From positions 1 through 39,248 of the forward strand of contig JAJDDX010000313.1 of assembly GCA_029260055.1 (NCBI GenBank): 39,248 nt of DNA, written 5' to 3'. The notes under the pieces are model-generated. The model saw nothing but the letters and a program-made list of their open reading frames with translations, had not been told where the DNA came from and did no database searches. Positions 8,243 to 21,043 of this stretch are shown here, piece by piece; position 1 is the first letter of the stretch; each line of letters starts with the position of its first letter. This stretch comes from Phycisphaerae bacterium. Lineage in GTDB: Bacteria > Planctomycetota > Phycisphaerae > UBA1845. The position numbers and the translations under genes are program-made.

Positions 8243-8258
8243 GACGTGTACTGTCACG
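8238..8258. terminator. Short inverted repeat across convergent stops
   Basis: CGTGA (8238-8242) and TCACG (8254-8258) form an inverted repeat spanning the stop codons of two convergent genes. It has only a 5-bp stem and no adjacent T-run, so a bidirectional terminator is possible but weakly supported. Confidence 0.2.
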
Positions 8259-10143
8259 GCTCGCGCCGGGGCCGCCGCTTCTTGTCGAACGGAATCCGCA
8301 GGTGGTATGCGCCGTCCTCGAGGTTGCTCTCGACCGGATAACCGCACTTGTGGAACACGCGCAGCATACCGTGGTTGTCGACGAGCACGTCGGCCGTAAA
8401 GCCAGCGATACCGTTCGATCGTGCGCTGTCCACGGCAGCGTTCATCAGCGTGGTGCCGATCCCCTTGCCCTGCCAATCGTCACGAACGAGAAAGGCGGCG
8501 TCGGCGAAGTTGCTCTTCGGGTCGTTCCGGTAATGAGCGATCGCGATCAGTTCGGCGTCCTCGGTCGCGTCGGTCATCGCGACCAGAGCCATATCCGCGC
8601 GGTAGTCGACGCGAAGCAGCTCCTGGAGCTTCTCATGCGGCATCGACTTGAGCATCTGAAAGAAACGATAGTGAATCGAGTCGTCGGACAGCTTGTAGAA
8701 CAGGTCGCGAACCAACCGCTCGTCGGTCAGCCTCAACGGACGCATGAACACCCGCGTCTCGTCGCTCAGGTCGATCCACTGTTCCAGCTCCTCCGGATAG
8801 ATCGCGGGGTGAATCGGTAGCTCGATCTGGTCGTGATAGATCAACCCTCGCGTTTTCGCCTCCGCGATAAGCCAGGGGCGGAACTTCGGGTGAGCGATTT
8901 GGATCAGTGCCATCGCCCGCTCACGCATCGTCTTTCCGTGCAGGTAGGCCGCCCCGTACTCCGTCACGACGTAGTGGACGTCACCACGGCTGGTCACCAC
9001 CCCGGCGCCCGGCTTGAGCATGGGCACAATCCGTGAGATGGTCTCACCGGCCGCGGTCGACGGCAACGCGATGATCGGCTTGCCCCCCTTGGAGCGTGCG
9101 GCCCCGCGCGTGAAATCCACCTGACCACCGATCCCGCTGTAGAACATGGTCCCCAGCGAATCCGCGCACACCTGCCCGGTCATATCCACCTCAATCGCCG
9201 CGTTGATCGATATCATCTTGTCGTTCTTGGCGATATTGAACGGGTCGTTGACGTACTCGGTCGGGTGGAACACGACCATCGGGTTGTTGTCGATGAAGTC
9301 GTAGAGCTTGCGCGATCCGATCACGAAGCTCGCCACGATCTTACCGCGATGGAGTGTCTTTTCGGCGTTCGTGATGACGCCCTTCTCGACCAGTGGAATC
9401 ACGCCGTCGCTGAACATCTCCGTGTGAATGCCAAGGTCCTTGAACTCCGTGAGGAAGTGCAGCACGGCGTCCGGGATCGTGCCGATTCCGAGTTGCAGCG
9501 TCGCACCGTCTTCGACCAGATTGGCGATATGCCGGCCAATGCGCCGCGACAGCTCGTCCGGCTCGCCCTGCGGCGCTTCCGGCAACGCCACATCGCTCGC
9601 CACGAGATGGTCGATGTCCCGCACGTGAATGAAGCAGTCCCCCAGCACACGCGGCATGCGAGCATTCACCTCGGCAACGACGATTCGAGCGGACTCAGCC
9701 GCCGCTTTCACGATGTCCGTCGACACGCCATAGCTGCAGTAGCCGTGCTCATCCGGCTCGCTCACCGAGATCAATGCCACGTCGATGACCGCGCGCCCGC
9801 TTCGGAAGAGCGCCGGGATCTCGGAAAGGAAGATCGGGGTGTAGTCGGCCCTGCCGGCTGCTACGGCCTCCCGTGTGTTCGGGCCGATGAAGTACGCGTT
9901 GTGTCGAAAACGATCGCCCAGCGGTGCCCTGGCATAGGGCGCCGTCCCAAGCGTCATGATGTGGACGATCTCCGTGTCGCTCAGCTCCCTGCGCTCGGCA
10001 AGTGCCGTCACGAGCGTCTCGGGCTCCGCCACACCCGAGCCCACGAACACACGATGACCGGGCCGGACGCACGCGACGCCCTCCTGCGCGGTGGCGATCT
10101 TGTCCTTGAACCGTTCCGTCCAATGCGCCACGGTCTGTTTCAT
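8254..10143 (-). CDS. Acetyl-CoA hydrolase/CoA-transferase fused to a GNAT acetyltransferase
   Basis: A 629-aa protein starting at ATG 10143 with AAGGAG nine bases upstream. Residues about 1-435 form an acetyl-CoA hydrolase/4-hydroxybutyrate CoA-transferase-type domain, with GIGTIPDAV at 219-227, the probable catalytic Glu242 in GIHTEMFSDG, and the C-terminal YSGIGGQVDFTRGA segment. Residues about 462-620 form a GNAT domain with the acetyl-CoA loop VRDDWQGKGIG (553-563). Fusions of these two domains are a known architecture. The enzyme probably releases or transfers CoA from acetyl-CoA or a related acyl-CoA. The GNAT part could acetylate the enzyme itself or another protein and so sense acetyl-CoA, which is inference. 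A sigma-54-like promoter lies upstream, linking it to the nearby NtrC-type regulator. Confidence 0.92.
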   Translation of the reverse strand: MKQTVAHWTERFKDKIATAQEGVACVRPGHRVFVGSGVAEPETLVTALAERRELSDTEIVHIMTLGTAPYARAPLGDRFRHNAYFIGPNTREAVAAGRADYTPIFLSEIPALFRSGRAVIDVALISVSEPDEHGYCSYGVSTDIVKAAAESARIVVAEVNARMPRVLGDCFIHVRDIDHLVASDVALPEAPQGEPDELSRRIGRHIANLVEDGATLQLGIGTIPDAVLHFLTEFKDLGIHTEMFSDGVIPLVEKGVITNAEKTLHRGKIVASFVIGSRKLYDFIDNNPMVVFHPTEYVNDPFNIAKNDKMISINAAIEVDMTGQVCADSLGTMFYSGIGGQVDFTRGAARSKGGKPIIALPSTAAGETISRIVPMLKPGAGVVTSRGDVHYVVTEYGAAYLHGKTMRERAMALIQIAHPKFRPWLIAEAKTRGLIYHDQIELPIHPAIYPEELEQWIDLSDETRVFMRPLRLTDERLVRDLFYKLSDDSIHYRFFQMLKSMPHEKLQELLRVDYRADMALVAMTDATEDAELIAIAHYRNDPKSNFADAAFLVRDDWQGKGIGTTLMNAAVDSARSNGIAGFTADVLVDNHGMLRVFHKCGYPVESNLEDGAYHLRIPFDKKRRPRREP

Positions 10144-10219
10144 CGCTCGAGACTCCTTCAGGCCCGCTATGTGCCGCGGCTCGCGCGATGCGACCCCACA
10201 TTGCGGACACCATGAGCCA

Positions 10220-10235
10220 TGCAAGACCATGGCCA
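10220..10235 (-). promoter_or_regulatory. Candidate sigma-54 promoter for the CoA-transferase/GNAT gene
   Basis: On the minus strand the sequence TGGCCATGGTCTTGCA matches the sigma-54 consensus (TGGCACG-N4-TTGCW) in TGGC and in all of TTGCA, with the exact GG-N10-GC spacing. The implied start is near 10210, giving a leader of about 67 nt that contains the AAGGAG site. A sigma-54 activator is encoded about 2 kb away. Confidence 0.5.
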
Positions 10236-10327
10236 TTCTGCGCGCACCCCGAAAACGGGAGCACGTTCGAAAACCGGCAGATTGGCGAAGGCGTATGGGA
10301 CGAAGTGCGAACCGGAATCGCGCGGCG

Positions 10328-10735
10328 TTAACCGACCGCGGATGGGTTGATCCCGAGCGCTTCCGCGAGCTTCGACAGTTCGAATGGCTTCTCGATGAAC
10401 TTGGGTTGGGCGGCCGCGTCGTCTGTGGGACCCACTCCCGTCCGCACGATTCGCGTGGACGGATTCCGGGCAAGTGCGCGATCCTCGACCGCAGTGGATG
10501 CTCCGTCAGCCAGGCGCTCGGCCACAATGACGGCGTCCACCGTGTGCCCTTCCAACATGCGATCCGCGCCGGTCCGCGAATCGACCTGGAGGACATCACA
10601 CCATCGGCTGAGGTAGGTCACGATCGACCAACGGAGAAGCGCTTCGGGCTCGACGACAAGCACTCGCGGACGACCACCATCGGGTGTCGCCGATCCGCCA
10701 GTGCGATCGCTATCGCCGTCCGTTTGCTTTTGCAT
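10328..10735 (-). CDS. Small pseudo-receiver (degenerate CheY-like) protein
   Basis: This 135-aa protein starts at ATG 10735, with GGAGG seven bases upstream. After a 22-residue polar leader it has a receiver-like fold: RPRVLVVEPEALLRWSIVTYL (strand 1 and helix 1), VDAVIVAERLADG (strand 3) and KFIEKPFELSKLAEAL (strand 5 and helix 5). Two hallmarks are missing. The acidic pair after strand 1 is EP instead of ED or DD, and the position of the phospho-acceptor Asp in 'VIVAERLAD' is Ala. The conserved Lys of strand 5 (EKPF) is kept. The LLRWS segment resembles LIRWS of the NtrC-type regulator encoded nearby, so it may be a duplicated and decayed receiver acting without phosphorylation. No output domain follows. 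A sigma-54-like element precedes it. Confidence 0.75.
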   Translation of the reverse strand: MQKQTDGDSDRTGGSATPDGGRPRVLVVEPEALLRWSIVTYLSRWCDVLQVDSRTGADRMLEGHTVDAVIVAERLADGASTAVEDRALARNPSTRIVRTGVGPTDDAAAQPKFIEKPFELSKLAEALGINPSAVG

Positions 10736-10764: not shown

Positions 10765-10780
10765 AGCACAACGCATGCCA
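10765..10780 (-). promoter_or_regulatory. Candidate sigma-54 promoter for the pseudo-receiver gene
   Basis: On the minus strand TGGCATGCGTTGTGCT matches ten of the twelve defined positions of TGGCACG-N4-TTGCW and keeps GG-N10-GC. The predicted start, near 10754, leaves about 19 nt of leader containing GGAGG. Confidence 0.45.
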
Positions 10781-11030
10781 CAGTTCAAGCGATCCAGTCC
10801 ATTGAAGCAGTAACGGCACGAACCGCGTTGCAGCGGCCTTCCGCGCCGAACCGGGACGGGCCGGGCTGACGGTCCCTCCCACTCGGACCCGTGGTATTTG
10901 GCACAACCGTCGTGCGAAATGCCCCGAAGGCACGCGCATCGCTCGAGGCGGGCCCAGTGCGCCAAGCTCGTCGGGCCGGACACGGCGAACATATGCGGCT
11001 CGGCGGATGCGCGGCCTTTGGACTGAACTT

Positions 11031-11104: not shown

Positions 11105-12313
11105 ATGCCGGATTCGCGTTTCTCAGACATGATGAAGCTGATCGGCTTCGACGCCCGTGACGCCGCCCTCCTGGGGCAACAGGCGGACACGATCGAGCCG
11201 TGGATACCGTCCATCGTGGATCATTTCTACGAAGCTTTGCTGCAGCGGCCGGACGCCCGCGCTATTTTCACAGGGGGCGAGCCGCAAATCGAACGCCTCC
11301 GGCATCTCTTGGCCGATTGGCTGCGAGGGCTATTCAGCGGCACCTATGACAGCGCCTACTACGAAAAACGGCTCGCCATCGGGGCCGCCCACGTCCGCGT
11401 GGCCCTGCCGCAGCAATACATGATCCTGGGAATCGAGTTGATCCGGCAGGAACTGGAGACCGCCCTCCGCTCGGCCGACGTGGCGGAGACGGACCTGACC
11501 CTCCGATCTCTCGACAAGCTCCTCACGCTCGAACTCGCGATCATGCTCGAGAGTTACAAGGAAGGGTTCGCCAAGCGAATCCGCCGATCTGAGCGTGACG
11601 CGCTCGAGGAGAAGCTCACCCGCGCCGAGCACTTGGCTGAGATCGGGCAGTTGGCTGCCTCGCTCGCGCACGAAATCAAGAACCCGCTCGCCGGGATCAG
11701 CGGGGCTATCGAGGTGATCGGCGACGGTATGCCGGCCGGCAACCCCCACCGCCAGATCGTCAAGGAGATCCTCGGGCAGATCAGTCGCCTCGACGCGGCC
11801 GTCAAGGACTTGTTGGTGTACGCACGCCCGGTCAAACCGCGCGCCGCGCAGATCGTGCTTCACGACGCGGTCGTCCGGGTGCTGATGCTTCTCCGTGAAG
11901 AGCCCGAAATTCAGCGCGTCCGCGTGGACTACGAGCCGCCGGCCGGCGACTCGACCGTTCACGCCGACGACAGCCACATGGAACAACTGTTGATGAACCT
12001 CATCATCAACGCGGCGCATGCGTCGCAGGACGGTCAGGTCATCAAGGTCGAGGTCATTCCGAACGGCGAGTCTGTTCGGCTGGCTGTGACGGACTGGGGA
12101 GCCGGCATGCCGCCCCACGTCCGCGAGCGCGCTTTCGAAGCGTTTTTCACCACGAAGGCGAAAGGAACGGGACTCGGGCTTGCCATCTGCCGTCGACTCG
12201 TCGAGGCTACGGATGGCACTATCGAATTGCAGAGCGAACTCGGCGAAGGCACGAAGGTCATGGCGAGCCTACCTCGCACAGGCCCCACAGAGGACAAAAG
12301 AACACAACGATGA
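11105..12313 (+). CDS. Globin-coupled histidine kinase (protoglobin sensor)
   Basis: This 402-aa protein begins with a protoglobin-type sensor domain (about 1-160) that contains the 'KRLAIGAAHVRVALPQQYMILG' region; His96 is the expected proximal haem ligand. A linker helix leads into a HisKA/HATPase module: H-box SLAHEIKNPL with phospho-accepting His189, N-box LLMNLIINAAHAS (295-307), G1 DWGAGMPP (330-337) and G2 KGTGLGLA (353-360). No membrane segment is present, so it should act in the cytoplasm. Family knowledge predicts haem-based sensing of O2, NO or CO that controls autophosphorylation. The stop overlaps the start of the NtrC-type regulator, its probable partner. No ribosome-binding site precedes the ATG; M9 or M10 are alternative starts. 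Confidence 0.9.
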   Translation: MPDSRFSDMMKLIGFDARDAALLGQQADTIEPWIPSIVDHFYEALLQRPDARAIFTGGEPQIERLRHLLADWLRGLFSGTYDSAYYEKRLAIGAAHVRVALPQQYMILGIELIRQELETALRSADVAETDLTLRSLDKLLTLELAIMLESYKEGFAKRIRRSERDALEEKLTRAEHLAEIGQLAASLAHEIKNPLAGISGAIEVIGDGMPAGNPHRQIVKEILGQISRLDAAVKDLLVYARPVKPRAAQIVLHDAVVRVLMLLREEPEIQRVRVDYEPPAGDSTVHADDSHMEQLLMNLIINAAHASQDGQVIKVEVIPNGESVRLAVTDWGAGMPPHVRERAFEAFFTTKAKGTGLGLAICRRLVEATDGTIELQSELGEGTKVMASLPRTGPTEDKRTQR

Positions 12314-13671
12314 TGGTACGCGTGTTGATTATCGAGGACGAGCACCTGATCCGGTGGTCGCTCAGACAAAAGTTCGAGGCCAGGGGCTATCAGGTCGCCG
12401 AGTCTGAAACGGGCGCCGCGGGGCTTGCCGCCCTCGAGGAAGAGCAGTTCGACCTTCTCATGCTCGATTACAAGCTTCCGGATATGACCGGCTTGGACGT
12501 GTTGGGCAAGATCCGTGAGAAGGACAAGGATATCGTCGTCATTATGATGACCGCCTTCTCGAGCATCGAAAGCGCCGTCGATGCCATGAAACTGGGCGCA
12601 TACGACTACGTCACGAAGCCCTTCGACATGGATCAGCTCCTGCGTACCACCGGGAAAGCCCTGGAGACCACGAAGCTGCGTCGCGAAGTGCGCGAGCTGC
12701 GACGGCACATGCAGCAGACGTTCGGTTTCGATCGCATCATCGGCGACTCGCCGCTCATGGCCGAACTGTACGGTCTCCTCGATCGTGTCGCCATGAGCAG
12801 TTCGTCGACGCTGTTTCTGCGCGGCGAATCCGGCACGGGCAAGGACTTGTTCGCCCGCATCATCCACTACAACTCGGACCGCGCGGGCCGGCCTTTCATG
12901 AACATCACCTGCACCGCGCTGTCCGAGACGCTACTGGAAAGCGAACTCTTCGGCCACGAGAAAGGTGCCTTTACGGACGCCAAGAGCGCCAAGCGCGGGC
13001 TCTTCGAGTTGTCCGACGGCGGCACCATCTTCCTAGACGAAGTCGGCGACATGCCGCTGAACCTCCAAGCGAAGCTGCTTCGCTTCCTGGAGGAGCGCAC
13101 CTTCCGCCGGGTCGGCGGAACCACGGAAATCTCCGTAGATGTCAGGCTGATCGCAGCCACGAACCGCGACATCGAGCGTGCCATTGAAGAGGGCGCTTTC
13201 CGCGGCGATCTGATGTACCGCCTCAATGTCATACCGATCGACCTTCCGCCGGTGCGGGAGCGCGGCAACGACATCAAGCTTCTTGCCCAGTACTTCGTGG
13301 ATCAATTCGCCAAGGACTTCAAGAAGCCGGTCACGGACATCACCAAGGGCGCCTACGACAAGCTGTTCGACTACGCGTGGCCCGGAAACGTGCGGGAGCT
13401 GCGCAACGTCATGGAACGGGCCGTTCTTCTCTGCGACAAGGACGCAATCGGGCCGGAAGATATCATGATCGGTCGCGCGGGCTACGCGAGCCCCGCCAAC
13501 CCGGCCACGTTCGTGCTGCCGGCCGACGGCATCAACATCCACGAGCTCGAAAACGATCTGCTCCGCCAAGCGCTGGCTCGGGCCGGTAACAACAAGACGC
13601 AGGCGGCCAAACTGCTGCGTCTGAGCCGTGACGCTTTTCGGTATCGCCTCGAGAAACTCGGGTTACTCTAG
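12310..13671 (+). CDS. NtrC-family sigma-54-dependent response regulator
   Basis: A 453-aa protein with three domains. The receiver domain (about 3-118) has the acidic pair ED (9-10), phospho-acceptor Asp53 in MLDYKLPD, Thr81 and Lys103. The AAA+ sigma-54 interaction domain (about 142-375) has Walker A GESGTGKD (172-179), the sigma-54-contacting loop GAFTDA (219-224) and Walker B GGTIFLDE (237-244). A Fis-type helix-turn-helix sits at the C-terminus (NNKTQAAKLLRLSRDAFRYR). The start ATG overlaps the kinase stop, so the pair is co-translated. It should hydrolyse ATP to open sigma-54 promoters when phosphorylated. Three sigma-54-like promoters nearby are candidate targets, including one for nifJ directly downstream. 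GAFTDA is a known variant of GAFTGA. Confidence 0.95.
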   Translation: MMVRVLIIEDEHLIRWSLRQKFEARGYQVAESETGAAGLAALEEEQFDLLMLDYKLPDMTGLDVLGKIREKDKDIVVIMMTAFSSIESAVDAMKLGAYDYVTKPFDMDQLLRTTGKALETTKLRREVRELRRHMQQTFGFDRIIGDSPLMAELYGLLDRVAMSSSSTLFLRGESGTGKDLFARIIHYNSDRAGRPFMNITCTALSETLLESELFGHEKGAFTDAKSAKRGLFELSDGGTIFLDEVGDMPLNLQAKLLRFLEERTFRRVGGTTEISVDVRLIAATNRDIERAIEEGAFRGDLMYRLNVIPIDLPPVRERGNDIKLLAQYFVDQFAKDFKKPVTDITKGAYDKLFDYAWPGNVRELRNVMERAVLLCDKDAIGPEDIMIGRAGYASPANPATFVLPADGINIHELENDLLRQALARAGNNKTQAAKLLRLSRDAFRYRLEKLGLL

Positions 13672-13925: not shown

Positions 13926-13993
13926 CGCGCGGGTGAAGCGGACACGCGGGCAGCCGACACTTGGCAGCCCCGGGGCGGTCGCCAGGGCAGCGG

Positions 13994-14009
13994 TGGAACG
14001 CTTCTTGCC
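13994..14009 (+). promoter_or_regulatory. Candidate sigma-54 promoter of nifJ
   Basis: TGGAACGCTTCTTGCC matches ten of twelve defined positions of the sigma-54 consensus TGGCACG-N4-TTGCW, with exact GG-N10-GC spacing. The implied start is near 14020, about 75 nt before the nifJ ATG. Confidence 0.55.
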
Positions 14010-18738: not shown

Positions 18739-18831
18739 CCCCAGGCGTCGACACCTAACGTTTTGCCGACCCGGTGGCATCCGGTCGCTCGCGGCGTTCC
18801 TGCGAATCGCACGAATGCAAAGGAGGCGACC

Positions 18832-19554
18832 ATGCCCGGCCAATCAACGACCCGCGACCCCGCACTCACCAGAATCGTCGAACGCCAGATGCGCAACTGG
18901 GAGCTGGCGCGTACACAGCACCCGACGGACGCCCGGCAAGAACCGGCCGAAGTCGCCGAATTCATCGCCGTATCCCGCCAAGTGGGAGCCGGCGGCGCCG
19001 AAGTCGCCGCGATGCTCGGCGAAAGGCTCGGGTGGCCCGTGTTTGACAAGACCATTCTCCAGGTCATGGCCGGTACCGACGAGATCAGGCGAAAGCTCTA
19101 CGATTCAATGGACGAACGTGACATTGGGTGGTTTGAGGAGGCCCTGAGAGCCTTCGCCGATCCGGCGTTTGTCAAGAATGACTACTTCCACAGGTTGGTG
19201 GAAACGGTCCTCTTTATCGCGAGAAAGAGCCCGGCAGTCTTTCTCGGGCGTGCGGTCGACCTCATTCTACCGAGACAGGCCGGGTTCCGGGTGCGACTTG
19301 TGGCCCCACTTGACAATAGGTTAAGTAACTTTACACGTGAATTCGACGTCTCCGGCGACGAAGCAAGGCAGCAGATTCCCCAGCTCGACAGCCAACGCGC
19401 CGAGTTCACTCGCAAGCACTTTGCCACCGAACCGGACGATCCGCAGCGGTATGACCTCATTGTCAACATGGCGAGTTTCGAGCCTTCCGACGCCGCAGAG
19501 CTGATCTTCTCGGCCCGCGCGAAGCTGAGGAGGTTAAGTCCCGACACTGCCTGA
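18832..19554 (+). CDS. Cytidylate kinase-like P-loop protein
   Basis: A 240-aa protein with a strong AAAGGAGG site six bases before ATG 18832, which fixes the start. It belongs to the cytidylate kinase-like family: SRQVGAGGAEVAAMLGERLG at about residues 47-66 carries the modified P-loop (GxGGxE in place of GxxxxGKT), and FDKTIL follows as in CMP kinases. The FLGRAVDLILP and VRLVAPLDNR segments match the nucleotide-binding and lid region. Family members are not proven CMP kinases and many are of unknown function. It lies 93 bp downstream of the DHOD-like gene on the same strand and may be the last gene of the nifJ transcription unit, though its own good ribosome-binding site permits independent expression. 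Confidence 0.85.
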   Translation: MPGQSTTRDPALTRIVERQMRNWELARTQHPTDARQEPAEVAEFIAVSRQVGAGGAEVAAMLGERLGWPVFDKTILQVMAGTDEIRRKLYDSMDERDIGWFEEALRAFADPAFVKNDYFHRLVETVLFIARKSPAVFLGRAVDLILPRQAGFRVRLVAPLDNRLSNFTREFDVSGDEARQQIPQLDSQRAEFTRKHFATEPDDPQRYDLIVNMASFEPSDAAELIFSARAKLRRLSPDTA

Positions 19555-19560
19555 GCGGCT

Positions 19561-19597
19561 TCCGCCGACGCACGCTCACTTCAATACGCTCGGCGGA
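19561..19597 (+). terminator. Hairpin after the cytidylate kinase-like gene
   Basis: TCCGCCGA (19561-19568) and TCGGCGGA (19590-19597) are a perfect 8-bp inverted repeat with a 21-nt loop, just after the stop codon. No T-run follows, so it may stabilise the 3' end or act with Rho rather than as an intrinsic terminator. Confidence 0.35.
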
Positions 19598-20021
19598 GTA
19601 GTCTCGGCGCGTCGTTCTTGAGAAGAGATTCCCACAAACGGCAAGCCCAAGCGCCCGGGACTCGTGTCAATGACTGTCGTCAAAAGACGTCGCCGAGCGC
19701 AGCGGCTCGAGTTCCGTCCGATCGCCGGAGCCAAGTCTCGAACCGTTTTTGCTCGCTGGCGGCCATGTGCGGTTTGGCACGCCGCTGGCGGGAATCCCCC
19801 AGGGCAGGTGCCCGGTTGGACCTCACGGGGTACCGGCAACGCGTCCTGTGACCGCCCGGCGCCATTCCCGCTCATGGCATGGAACTTGCCTTTGAATCTT
19901 GTGCTTGTAAGAATCGGGAAGGGTACCGGAGACTGTAACCCGAACGAGATGTATGCAGGGCTGGAGGTCTTGCCGTCGCGGCGAAAGTGTCGCTGCAATT
20001 CCCGCCCTGACAACGGAAACT

Positions 20022-20107
20022 GAGTCGCGTGCGCCAGTGGGTTAACCCCCTTCCGACTTCCCTCTCCTCCGGCCCGAAACGGGAGGGAACCCCTGGCGCC
20101 GCGGCTC
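20022..20107. repeat. Hairpin repeat unit, copy 1
   Basis: Copy 1 of an 86-87 bp unit. Its ends (GAGTCGCG and CGCGGCTC) and next inner arms (CGCCAGTGGGTT and AACCCCTGGCG) are inverted repeats, and the centre holds TTCCCTCTCC...GGCCCGAA, which is identical over 21 nt in all three copies. The inner stem is CCCG-AAA-CGGG. Confidence 0.8.
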
Positions 20108-20170
20108 TTCAATAAACTGGGCAAGGACGCGACCCGAATCGGACGTTGGGTCTCGTTCCGCCGAATCAAC

Positions 20171-20257
20171 GAGTCGCTGACGCCAGGGGAACAATTCCCT
20201 TCCGATTTCCCTCTCCTCCGGCCCGAACACGGAAGGGACCCCCTGGCGTTGCGGCCC
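20171..20257. repeat. Hairpin repeat unit, copy 2
   Basis: Copy 2 begins 149 bp after copy 1. Its arms CGCCAGGGG (20181-20189) and CCCCTGGCG (20240-20248) are a perfect 9-bp inverted repeat, with the shared 21-nt core between them. Confidence 0.8.
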
Positions 20258-20329
20258 TTGATCTTCGAGGACCAATCAGGTAGTTTATCAGGTAACTTAA
20301 GAATCGACCCCCAATTGGGAAGAACCAAA

Positions 20330-20416
20330 GGGTCGCGAACGTCAGCGGGATCATCCCCTCCCGAGTTCCCTCTCCTCCGGCCCGAATACGGGAGGGAGCC
20401 GCTGGTGTCGCGACCC
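20330..20416. repeat. Hairpin repeat unit, copy 3, with T-run
   Basis: Copy 3 begins 159 bp after copy 2. Its outer arms GGGTCGCGA and TCGCGACCC are a perfect 9-bp inverted repeat and the inner hairpin is CCCG-AATA-CGGG (20381-20392). It is followed by a T-rich run (20417-20428, TCCTTCTTTTTT), so on the plus strand this copy looks like an intrinsic terminator. Confidence 0.8.
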
Positions 20417-20494
20417 TCCTTCTTTTTTACTGATGCAAGAGAGGCGAGTTCCGGCAGCGGCTTGCCGGCTTACTCGCGGACCGTCGAGTGCTTC

Positions 20495-20523
20495 TTGCGC
20501 TTCGGCGCCATCCTTCGTATACT
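20495..20523 (+). promoter_or_regulatory. Candidate sigma-70 promoter of the hemerythrin gene
   Basis: TTGCGC (20495-20500) and TATACT (20518-20523) are separated by 17 nt. The predicted start near 20530 leaves a leader of about 60 nt ending in AGGAG before the ATG. Confidence 0.5.
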
Positions 20524-20590
20524 TGCGGCAGCATCGGGAACGCCCTCGGGGCGCGGGCTTGGACGTGGTTGAACCTACCAGGAGAACGGC

Positions 20591-21043
20591 ATGGACACGG
20601 CCGAGTTTGCCAGACGCATACGGGACGAGCACGAGCAGGTCAACGAATTGGCGGAAGCGTTACGGACGCAGACAGCCGTCGTTCCGCGCGCCGGCACGGA
20701 GCACTGGCTTCGCCGATTGAAGGACCGTTTCGAACACTTCCGCGCTCATCAATACAAACACATGGCCCTCGAGGAGCAGGAGGGCTACATGACCTTGGTC
20801 GTCGAGCGCCGTCCCACGTTGTCAGCGCAAGTGGAGCACCTGAAGCATGAGCACCGCCAGTTCGCGCACCTCATGGATCGAATCCACGAGACGCTCGAAG
20901 TCCTCGAACCGACCGACGCGCTGGTGGCGTTCGATTGCTGCCGCCGAGTCGACCAGTTGCTATCGTATATCGATCGCCACGAGAATGACGAGAACTTGCT
21001 GATGACGTACGTATTCACACAGGACATGGGCGCGCACGACTGA
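20591..21043 (+). CDS. Hemerythrin-like HHE-domain protein
   Basis: A 150-aa all-helical protein with AGGAG seven bases before ATG 20591. Candidate diiron ligands are spaced as in hemerythrin-like HHE proteins: His14 (RDEHEQV), His49/His53 (FEHFRAHQ), His57 with Glu61 (HMALEE), His86/His88 (LKHEHRQ) and His130 with Glu134 (DRHENDENLL). Such proteins bind O2 or respond to nitrosative and oxidative stress; this one has no attached output domain or signal peptide, so it acts in the cytoplasm. It lies downstream of the oxygen-sensitive PFOR cluster but behind its own promoter and the repeat block. O2 scavenging or repair of iron clusters is inferred, not shown. Confidence 0.87.
   Translation: MDTAEFARRIRDEHEQVNELAEALRTQTAVVPRAGTEHWLRRLKDRFEHFRAHQYKHMALEEQEGYMTLVVERRPTLSAQVEHLKHEHRQFAHLMDRIHETLEVLEPTDALVAFDCCRRVDQLLSYIDRHENDENLLMTYVFTQDMGAHD

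Follow-up and report, generated by a model that had tools for sequence, protein, structure and literature searches.

A probable sigma-54-dependent small RNA array in the predicted regulon of a globin-coupled kinase and NtrC-family regulator of Phycisphaerae

The Qrr small RNAs (sRNAs) are characterized by a conserved pairing core. In Vibrio they are controlled by sigma-54 and the NtrC-family activator LuxO, and several copies are present in some genomes (PMC8043402, PMC10162802). Pxr of Myxococcus xanthus has a predicted sigma-54 promoter, adjacent NtrC-like regulator and kinase genes and three stem-loops, its function needs a loop C, and it has tandem paralogues in Cystobacter (PMC5684412, PMC5568312). 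In the NmpRSTU system, also of M. xanthus, a globin-coupled, O2-linked kinase signals to the NtrC-like regulator NmpR, paired dyads lie upstream of sigma-54 promoters and hemerythrin belongs to the regulon; the term sRNA is absent from the paper describing it (PMC11841059). The globin-coupled kinase AfGcHK of Anaeromyxobacter senses O2 (PMC8697598). Lastly, RoxS/RsaE of Bacillus and Staphylococcus has C-rich regions, responds to O2/NO through two-component control and acts in redox metabolism, with known targets (PMC4409812).

Here we describe a locus with features of each of these systems in a 39,248-nt stretch of DNA from a Phycisphaerae bacterium (contig JAJDDX010000313.1 of assembly GCA_029260055.1), the whole of which we refer to as the window. 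We conclude that three hairpins at this locus are tandem copies of a previously uncatalogued bacterial sRNA, and we consider it probable that they form a sigma-54-dependent, likely trans-acting three-hairpin unit in the regulon of a globin kinase/NtrC system that itself likely senses O2 (Table 1).

Table 1. Features of the window that bear on the predicted sRNA, in order of position
Feature	Position	Strand	Basis and remarks
Acetyl/butyryl-CoA:acetate CoA-transferase with C-terminal GNAT	8254..10599	-	PF13336, PF02550, PF00583; TIGR03948 below cut-off
Sigma-54 box TGGCATGCGTTGTGCT, facing the CoA-transferase gene	10765..10780	-	Sigma-54 scan, module search
Second dyad pair, CGTGGTATTTGGCACA and CGTGCGAAATGCCCCG, 21 bp apart	10890..10926		Same dyad; between kinase gene and minus-strand sigma-54 box
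Protoglobin-HisKA-HATPase histidine kinase, likely O2 sensor	11105..12313	+	PF11563 (7e-34), PF00512, PF02518
NtrC-family response regulator	12310..13671	+	REC, Sigma54_activat, HTH_8
Possible sigma-54 box TGGAACGCTTCTTGCC, upstream of the probable real start of the pyruvate:ferredoxin oxidoreductase gene	13994..14009	+	Score 14.6; weak evidence
Dyad pair (predicted enhancer), TGTGCGGTTTGGCACG and TGGCGGGAATCCCCCA, 20 bp apart	19766..19801		Motif trained without the window
Sigma-54 (-24/-12) promoter TGGCATGGAACTTGCC	19875..19890	+	Best plus-strand sigma-54 site of the whole window
Predicted transcript, three hairpins and ~120-nt 5' leader	19901..20432	+	From promoter and terminator; start ~12 nt past the -12 box
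sRNA hairpin copy 1	20022..20108	+	Fold, pairing in window; model R2 (built without window) E 3e-13
Apical core of copy 1, invariant	20058..20078	+	Identity among copies; near-invariance of UCC-GGCCCGAAC over 60 homologues
sRNA hairpin copy 2	20171..20258	+	Fold, pairing in window; R2 E 1.3e-14
Apical core of copy 2, invariant	20207..20227	+	Identity among copies
sRNA hairpin copy 3 (terminal)	20330..20417	+	Fold, pairing in window; R2 E 7e-15
Apical core of copy 3, invariant	20366..20386	+	Identity among copies
T-run TTCTTTTTT after copy 3, intrinsic-terminator tail	20420..20428	+	Sequence; T-runs after last copy in relatives' arrays
Hemerythrin gene, next downstream	20591..21043	+	PF01814; also adjoins the RNA in L082 and L100

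The hairpin array and its relatives

The initial annotation described three repeats with an identical 21-nt core in a gene-free stretch, the third ending in a T-run, and all of this was borne out. The core, TTCCCTCTCCTCCGGCCCGAA, is the same in all three copies (0 expected from shuffles), the T-run is where it was said to be, and 19555-20590 is without genes as far as tested, a 250-aa minus-strand ORF within it having no NCBIfam match. The hairpins start 149 and 159 nt apart and, folded as plus-strand RNA, give z-scores against shuffles of -6.3, -6.4 and -4.2 for copies 1, 2 and 3, respectively; for the predicted transcript z is -4.9, with the three hairpins staying local.

Homologues were sought with three covariance models: R1, from the three window copies, R2, from the hits of 28 relatives with the window left out, and R3, from 62 sequences including all copies. 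R1 gave weak to strong matches in 27 of the 51 genomes of the same family, and all of the matches inspected had cores close to CUCYCCGGCCCGAAC on differing stems. With R2 the number of matching family genomes was 38 of 51, and the window copies were recovered at E-values of 7e-15 to 3e-13. R3 found homologues in 67 of 114 genomes of the order, mostly at a single locus per genome, and in none of 293 genomes sampled from the rest of the phylum, an absence that is not firm because only about 15 candidates were scored per genome. Most genomes have one hairpin per array, about ten arrays have two and the window has three. Additional diverged copies of the core occur on unlinked contigs of three genomes of one genus (G022, G037 and G044; genus g23), suggesting paralogues.

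The arms of the hairpins had also been said to covary, a claim for which the window itself provides thin evidence (two-sided change with pairing kept at 3 of 31 pairs) and which had to be settled by the relatives. There it stood: two-sided changes were found at 26 of the 31 stem pairs in the relatives-only alignment and at 27 in the larger one, in which 90.4% of cells were paired, relative to 69% in shuffled and 34-48% in slid controls. While fitting these alignments to the model biases them towards its structure, the slid controls and the wholesale swapping of stem sequences make an artefact unlikely. The apical pairs within the core show almost no two-sided change, and it is therefore in sequence that we regard the core as conserved. 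Over 60 homologues the loop U-C-C-G-G-C-C-C-G is essentially invariant and UCC-GGCCCGAAC nearly so. With homologues and covarying stems in hand, the possibility that the unit is unique to this locus and its pairing not conserved in relatives, which the initial annotation had named as fatal to its reading, falls away.

Neither the window stretch nor any of 20 relatives matched Rfam at gathering score, a permissive Rfam search yielded only a chance hit, and a known RNA family was rejected. The sole exact match to the 21-nt core in public genomes, in Haloferula rosea, scores over the core alone and was taken as chance. Viral contigs gave no match, and we found no description of this RNA in the literature searched, which is no proof that none exists. 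Judged by its sequence, the RNA belongs to a known kind, the sigma-54-driven regulatory RNAs such as Qrr, Pxr and NrsZ, and is a new family among them, with a control system that is unusual and probably oxygen-sensing. It is a structured family that Rfam lacks and that occurs in over half of an order's sampled genomes.

Promoter, enhancer sites and terminator

In many loci the flanking genes are directed away from or against the RNA, which would therefore need its own promoter. A consensus scan for sigma-70 promoters found none. TGGCAY-N5-TTGC boxes, on the other hand, are conserved in the aligned upstream regions of relatives, and a strong sigma-54 box (GG-N10-GC) lies within 250 nt upstream at 38 of 51 loci, window included (dinucleotide shuffles gave 1.7 +- 1.3, downstream regions 2 and the reverse strand 5), and is absent at the other 13. 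The distance from box to hairpin falls into two groups, a short one of about 24-38 nt and a long one of about 70-230 nt that leaves a 5' leader, and it is to the latter that the window promoter belongs. The sigma-54 factor is encoded in 58 of 60 genomes tested (E 5e-53 in the window's own genome). In a sub-group of three loci (L103, L104 and L119) a second conserved block, CCCCAAATGCCGACCAGCAGGGG, lies between promoter and hairpin and is itself an apparent extra 5'-leader hairpin.

Exact k-mer enrichment revealed nothing in the way of enhancer sites, and it was a palindromic EM model, applied to the sequence upstream of the sigma-54 boxes, that produced the dyad TGYGGCAWWTGCCRCA de novo (log-likelihood 122, as against 25-30 for shuffled sequence). 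When the model was retrained without the window, sites of at least 12 bits were present upstream at 36 of 50 relative loci, downstream at one and far upstream at none, a count that is partly circular because the model was fitted to those upstream regions. The spacing to a second site, present in about half, was not fitted and peaks sharply at 20-21 bp. No good dyad was found at L100, L113, L114 and L118. The window dyads at 19766 and 19786 are individually weak (9.7 and 8.6 bits), and the window holds exactly two dyad pairs, this one and that at 10890/10911, with 0.035 pairs per shuffled window. Upstream sites for an NtrC-family activator are thus present as predicted sequence sites. Modules of a dyad pair with a sigma-54 box numbered 31 in the loci examined and 0 in shuffles; the window has only two, one at the sRNA and one at the CoA-transferase gene beside the kinase gene.

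At the other end of the RNA, 42 of 51 arrays have at least five T among the 8 nt that follow their last copy, relative to a background of 7%. Together with homologous arrays in many genera and an sRNA promoter of the sigma-54 type, the terminal T-run supports the tandem small-RNA family that was one of three interpretations offered by the initial annotation.

The globin-coupled kinase and its predicted regulon

Like the NmpR-type O2 regulon, the window encodes a globin-coupled kinase together with an NtrC-family regulator, and this system probably senses O2. The NmpR site, GCGCA-N5-TGCGC with 14-15 nt between sites, was not found; the dyad here is TGYGGCA-WW-TGCCRCA, with starts 20-21 bp apart, and because of this difference the logic can be called similar while an orthologous regulon is not proven.

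The kinase/NtrC pair adjoins the RNA at five loci, its domains being confirmed by Pfam at L085 and L101 and assigned by sequence clustering at L095, L099 and L105. Dyad pairs occur near 9 of 20 kinase genes (0.25 expected), many of them in genomes in which the kinase is distant from the RNA, and the dyad is in this way common to RNA and kinase genes. Among near-complete genomes, the kinase is present in 33 of the 34 that gave a strong RNA hit, compared with 31 of 39 that did not (Fisher p 0.03, relatedness ignored); as the latter number attests, the kinase can do without the RNA. The predicted promoter of the RNA and its linkage to the regulator are well supported by sequence, and that the switch-on signals are common to the RNA and the nearby two-component system suggests that the RNA is part of the oxygen response.

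What else might the system control? Besides the RNA and the globin kinase itself, modules precede genes for small receiver-like proteins, a 4Fe-4S protein and a copper ATPase and, in the window, that for the CoA-transferase. The last, which faces away from the globin kinase gene and has a pair of this dyad and a sigma-54 box in front of it, is likely a member of the regulon. The small receiver-like proteins (LLIVEPEALVRWSL...) lie directly behind modules at L105, L136, L137, L144 and L145, and a 70-aa piece of them has no Pfam hit. At L073 a single dyad pair separates two divergent sigma-54 boxes, one for the RNA and one for a copper ATPase gene, and RNA and gene may be co-regulated. The pyruvate:ferredoxin oxidoreductase ORF opens at 13933, with homology starting from residue ~68-70, and a Met at ~14092 looks like the true start; if it is, the box at 13994 would fall in the promoter of this gene, and no good dyad pair was found near it. 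With the dyad as a guide, the regulon could be mapped in one genome after another.

The neighbours of the RNA vary. NadE is the most frequent, lying downstream in the orientation of the RNA in 17 loci, hemerythrin is so placed in three (the window, L082 and L100), a copper ATPase is upstream in 10, and NtrC-family genes are near the RNA in several. Hemerythrin, pyruvate:ferredoxin oxidoreductase, CoA-transferase, malic enzyme and NadE all fit low-oxygen or redox metabolism. A Cytidylate_kin2 (PF13189) gene, at 18763-19554 of the window, is found in linkage with the RNA and with the genes for hemerythrin and pyruvate:ferredoxin oxidoreductase both here and in L100. A PF07638 sigma factor with a kinase, and weak matches to PF07596, are tentative hints of a lineage resembling planctomycetes.

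Proposed mode of action, alternatives and known counterparts

How might such an RNA work? We propose that the protoglobin-coupled, probably O2-sensing kinase controls phosphorylation of the NtrC-family regulator, which when phosphorylated would bind the paired dyads upstream of the hairpins and activate sigma-54 RNA polymerase at the adjacent promoter. The RNA would then be made when the kinase/NtrC system is active, as a transcript of ~530 nt with three near-identical hairpins that would end at the terminal hairpin and its T-run. Each hairpin is predicted to display, at the apex of a long and variable stem, a C-rich loop (CUCUCC...GGCCCGAAC), and the loop would probably base-pair with G-rich ribosome-binding sites of target mRNAs, the RNA thereby adjusting metabolism as oxygen changes, with the three copies serving to raise its dose. 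It is the pyrimidine-rich half of the loop that could pair with ribosome-binding sites, by analogy with RoxS and other C-rich sRNAs; a protein could just as well bind the other, invariant half, GGCCCGAAC. This segment exceeds the length required of an SD-binding loop, and there is room for such a partner. A search of 51 family genomes for the loop complement with a start codon returned mostly the antisense strand of the RNA gene itself or sporadic ORFs, adjacent gene starts had no special complementarity (mean z -0.28 for NadE), and complementarity of the loop to rRNA, with E. coli 16S and 23S as stand-ins, was at chance.

More tentatively, we entertain the idea that the RNA is an order-wide arm of the globin-kinase/NtrC oxygen response, in which a single-hairpin sRNA would act by way of its long invariant loop on a protein or a dedicated RNA partner and tandem gene copies would set the dose. 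If that is true, oxygen sensing and post-transcriptional control are coupled in bacteria for which few sRNA mechanisms have been described.

It is possible, if rather unlikely, that the sigma-54-dependent sRNA acts by protein binding, its GGCCCGAAC loop titrating or recruiting an RNA-binding protein or RNase in the manner of CsrB/CrcZ, with tandem copies adding sites. The invariance of the loop over 60 homologues whose stems are freely replaced, the tandem copies in about ten arrays and target searches that produced no convincing mRNA are consistent with this explanation, but a single hairpin, as in most genomes, is poor for a sponge, there is no candidate partner protein to name, and the pyrimidine-rich half equally fits SD pairing.

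That the hairpins are elaborate intrinsic terminators or cis-acting leaders of their neighbours, hemerythrin here and NadE elsewhere, is improbable. It had been suggested that they are terminators guarding the hemerythrin gene, and to the extent that the last copies (copy 3 here) resemble intrinsic terminators, with a G+C-rich stem and then the T-run that is common to most arrays, this part of the suggestion was correct; the same-strand placements of NadE and hemerythrin also speak for it. However, a terminator would leave unexplained, and have no use for, an invariant loop conserved beyond the stem; strong T-runs are missing after copies 1 and 2; the RNA has a sigma-54 promoter and dyads of its own; and it adjoins many other genes, those downstream being unrelated and often convergent. 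REP/BIME-like dispersed palindromic repeats mobilized by a TnpA-REP transposase, another early suggestion prompted by tandem hairpins in an intergenic region, can be dismissed, because no fourth copy of the core with up to three mismatches exists in the 7.63-Mb genome, in which R1 finds the three copies, the reverse strand of one and nothing else convincing, and relatives mostly have one locus per genome.

The trans-acting sRNA under globin-kinase/NtrC control is consequently the reading we prefer, and since promoter, enhancer sites, regulator and signal are all predicted, the whole chain can be tested at once. Its confirmation would extend globin-coupled oxygen sensing, so far described for protein genes, to regulatory RNA and would open a way into the study of RNA regulation for a group in which experiments are scarce.

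Each of the known systems matches part of this picture. Pxr, compared by organization and not by sequence, has in common with our RNA a predicted sigma-54 promoter, neighbouring regulator and kinase genes and three stem-loops, but it is from other bacteria. Our array repeats a single unit almost identically and with an unvarying loop, a protoglobin domain forms part of the kinase, and homologues also occur at unlinked sites. The likeness to the Qrr sRNAs is one of control logic, in sigma-54/NtrC-family control and multiple copies; their signal is quorum sensing, and here the copies can sit on one transcript. NmpRSTU and AfGcHK share with the window a globin-coupled kinase with an NtrC-like regulator, paired dyads before sigma-54 promoters and a link to hemerythrin. 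RoxS/RsaE is likewise a C-rich sRNA under an O2-linked two-component system with a role in redox metabolism, although its regulators are ResD/SrrA instead of sigma-54 with NtrC and the sequences are unrelated. By analogy with these systems, our best reading is of an RNA that would be built like Qrr or Pxr and would, in its logic, resemble RoxS.
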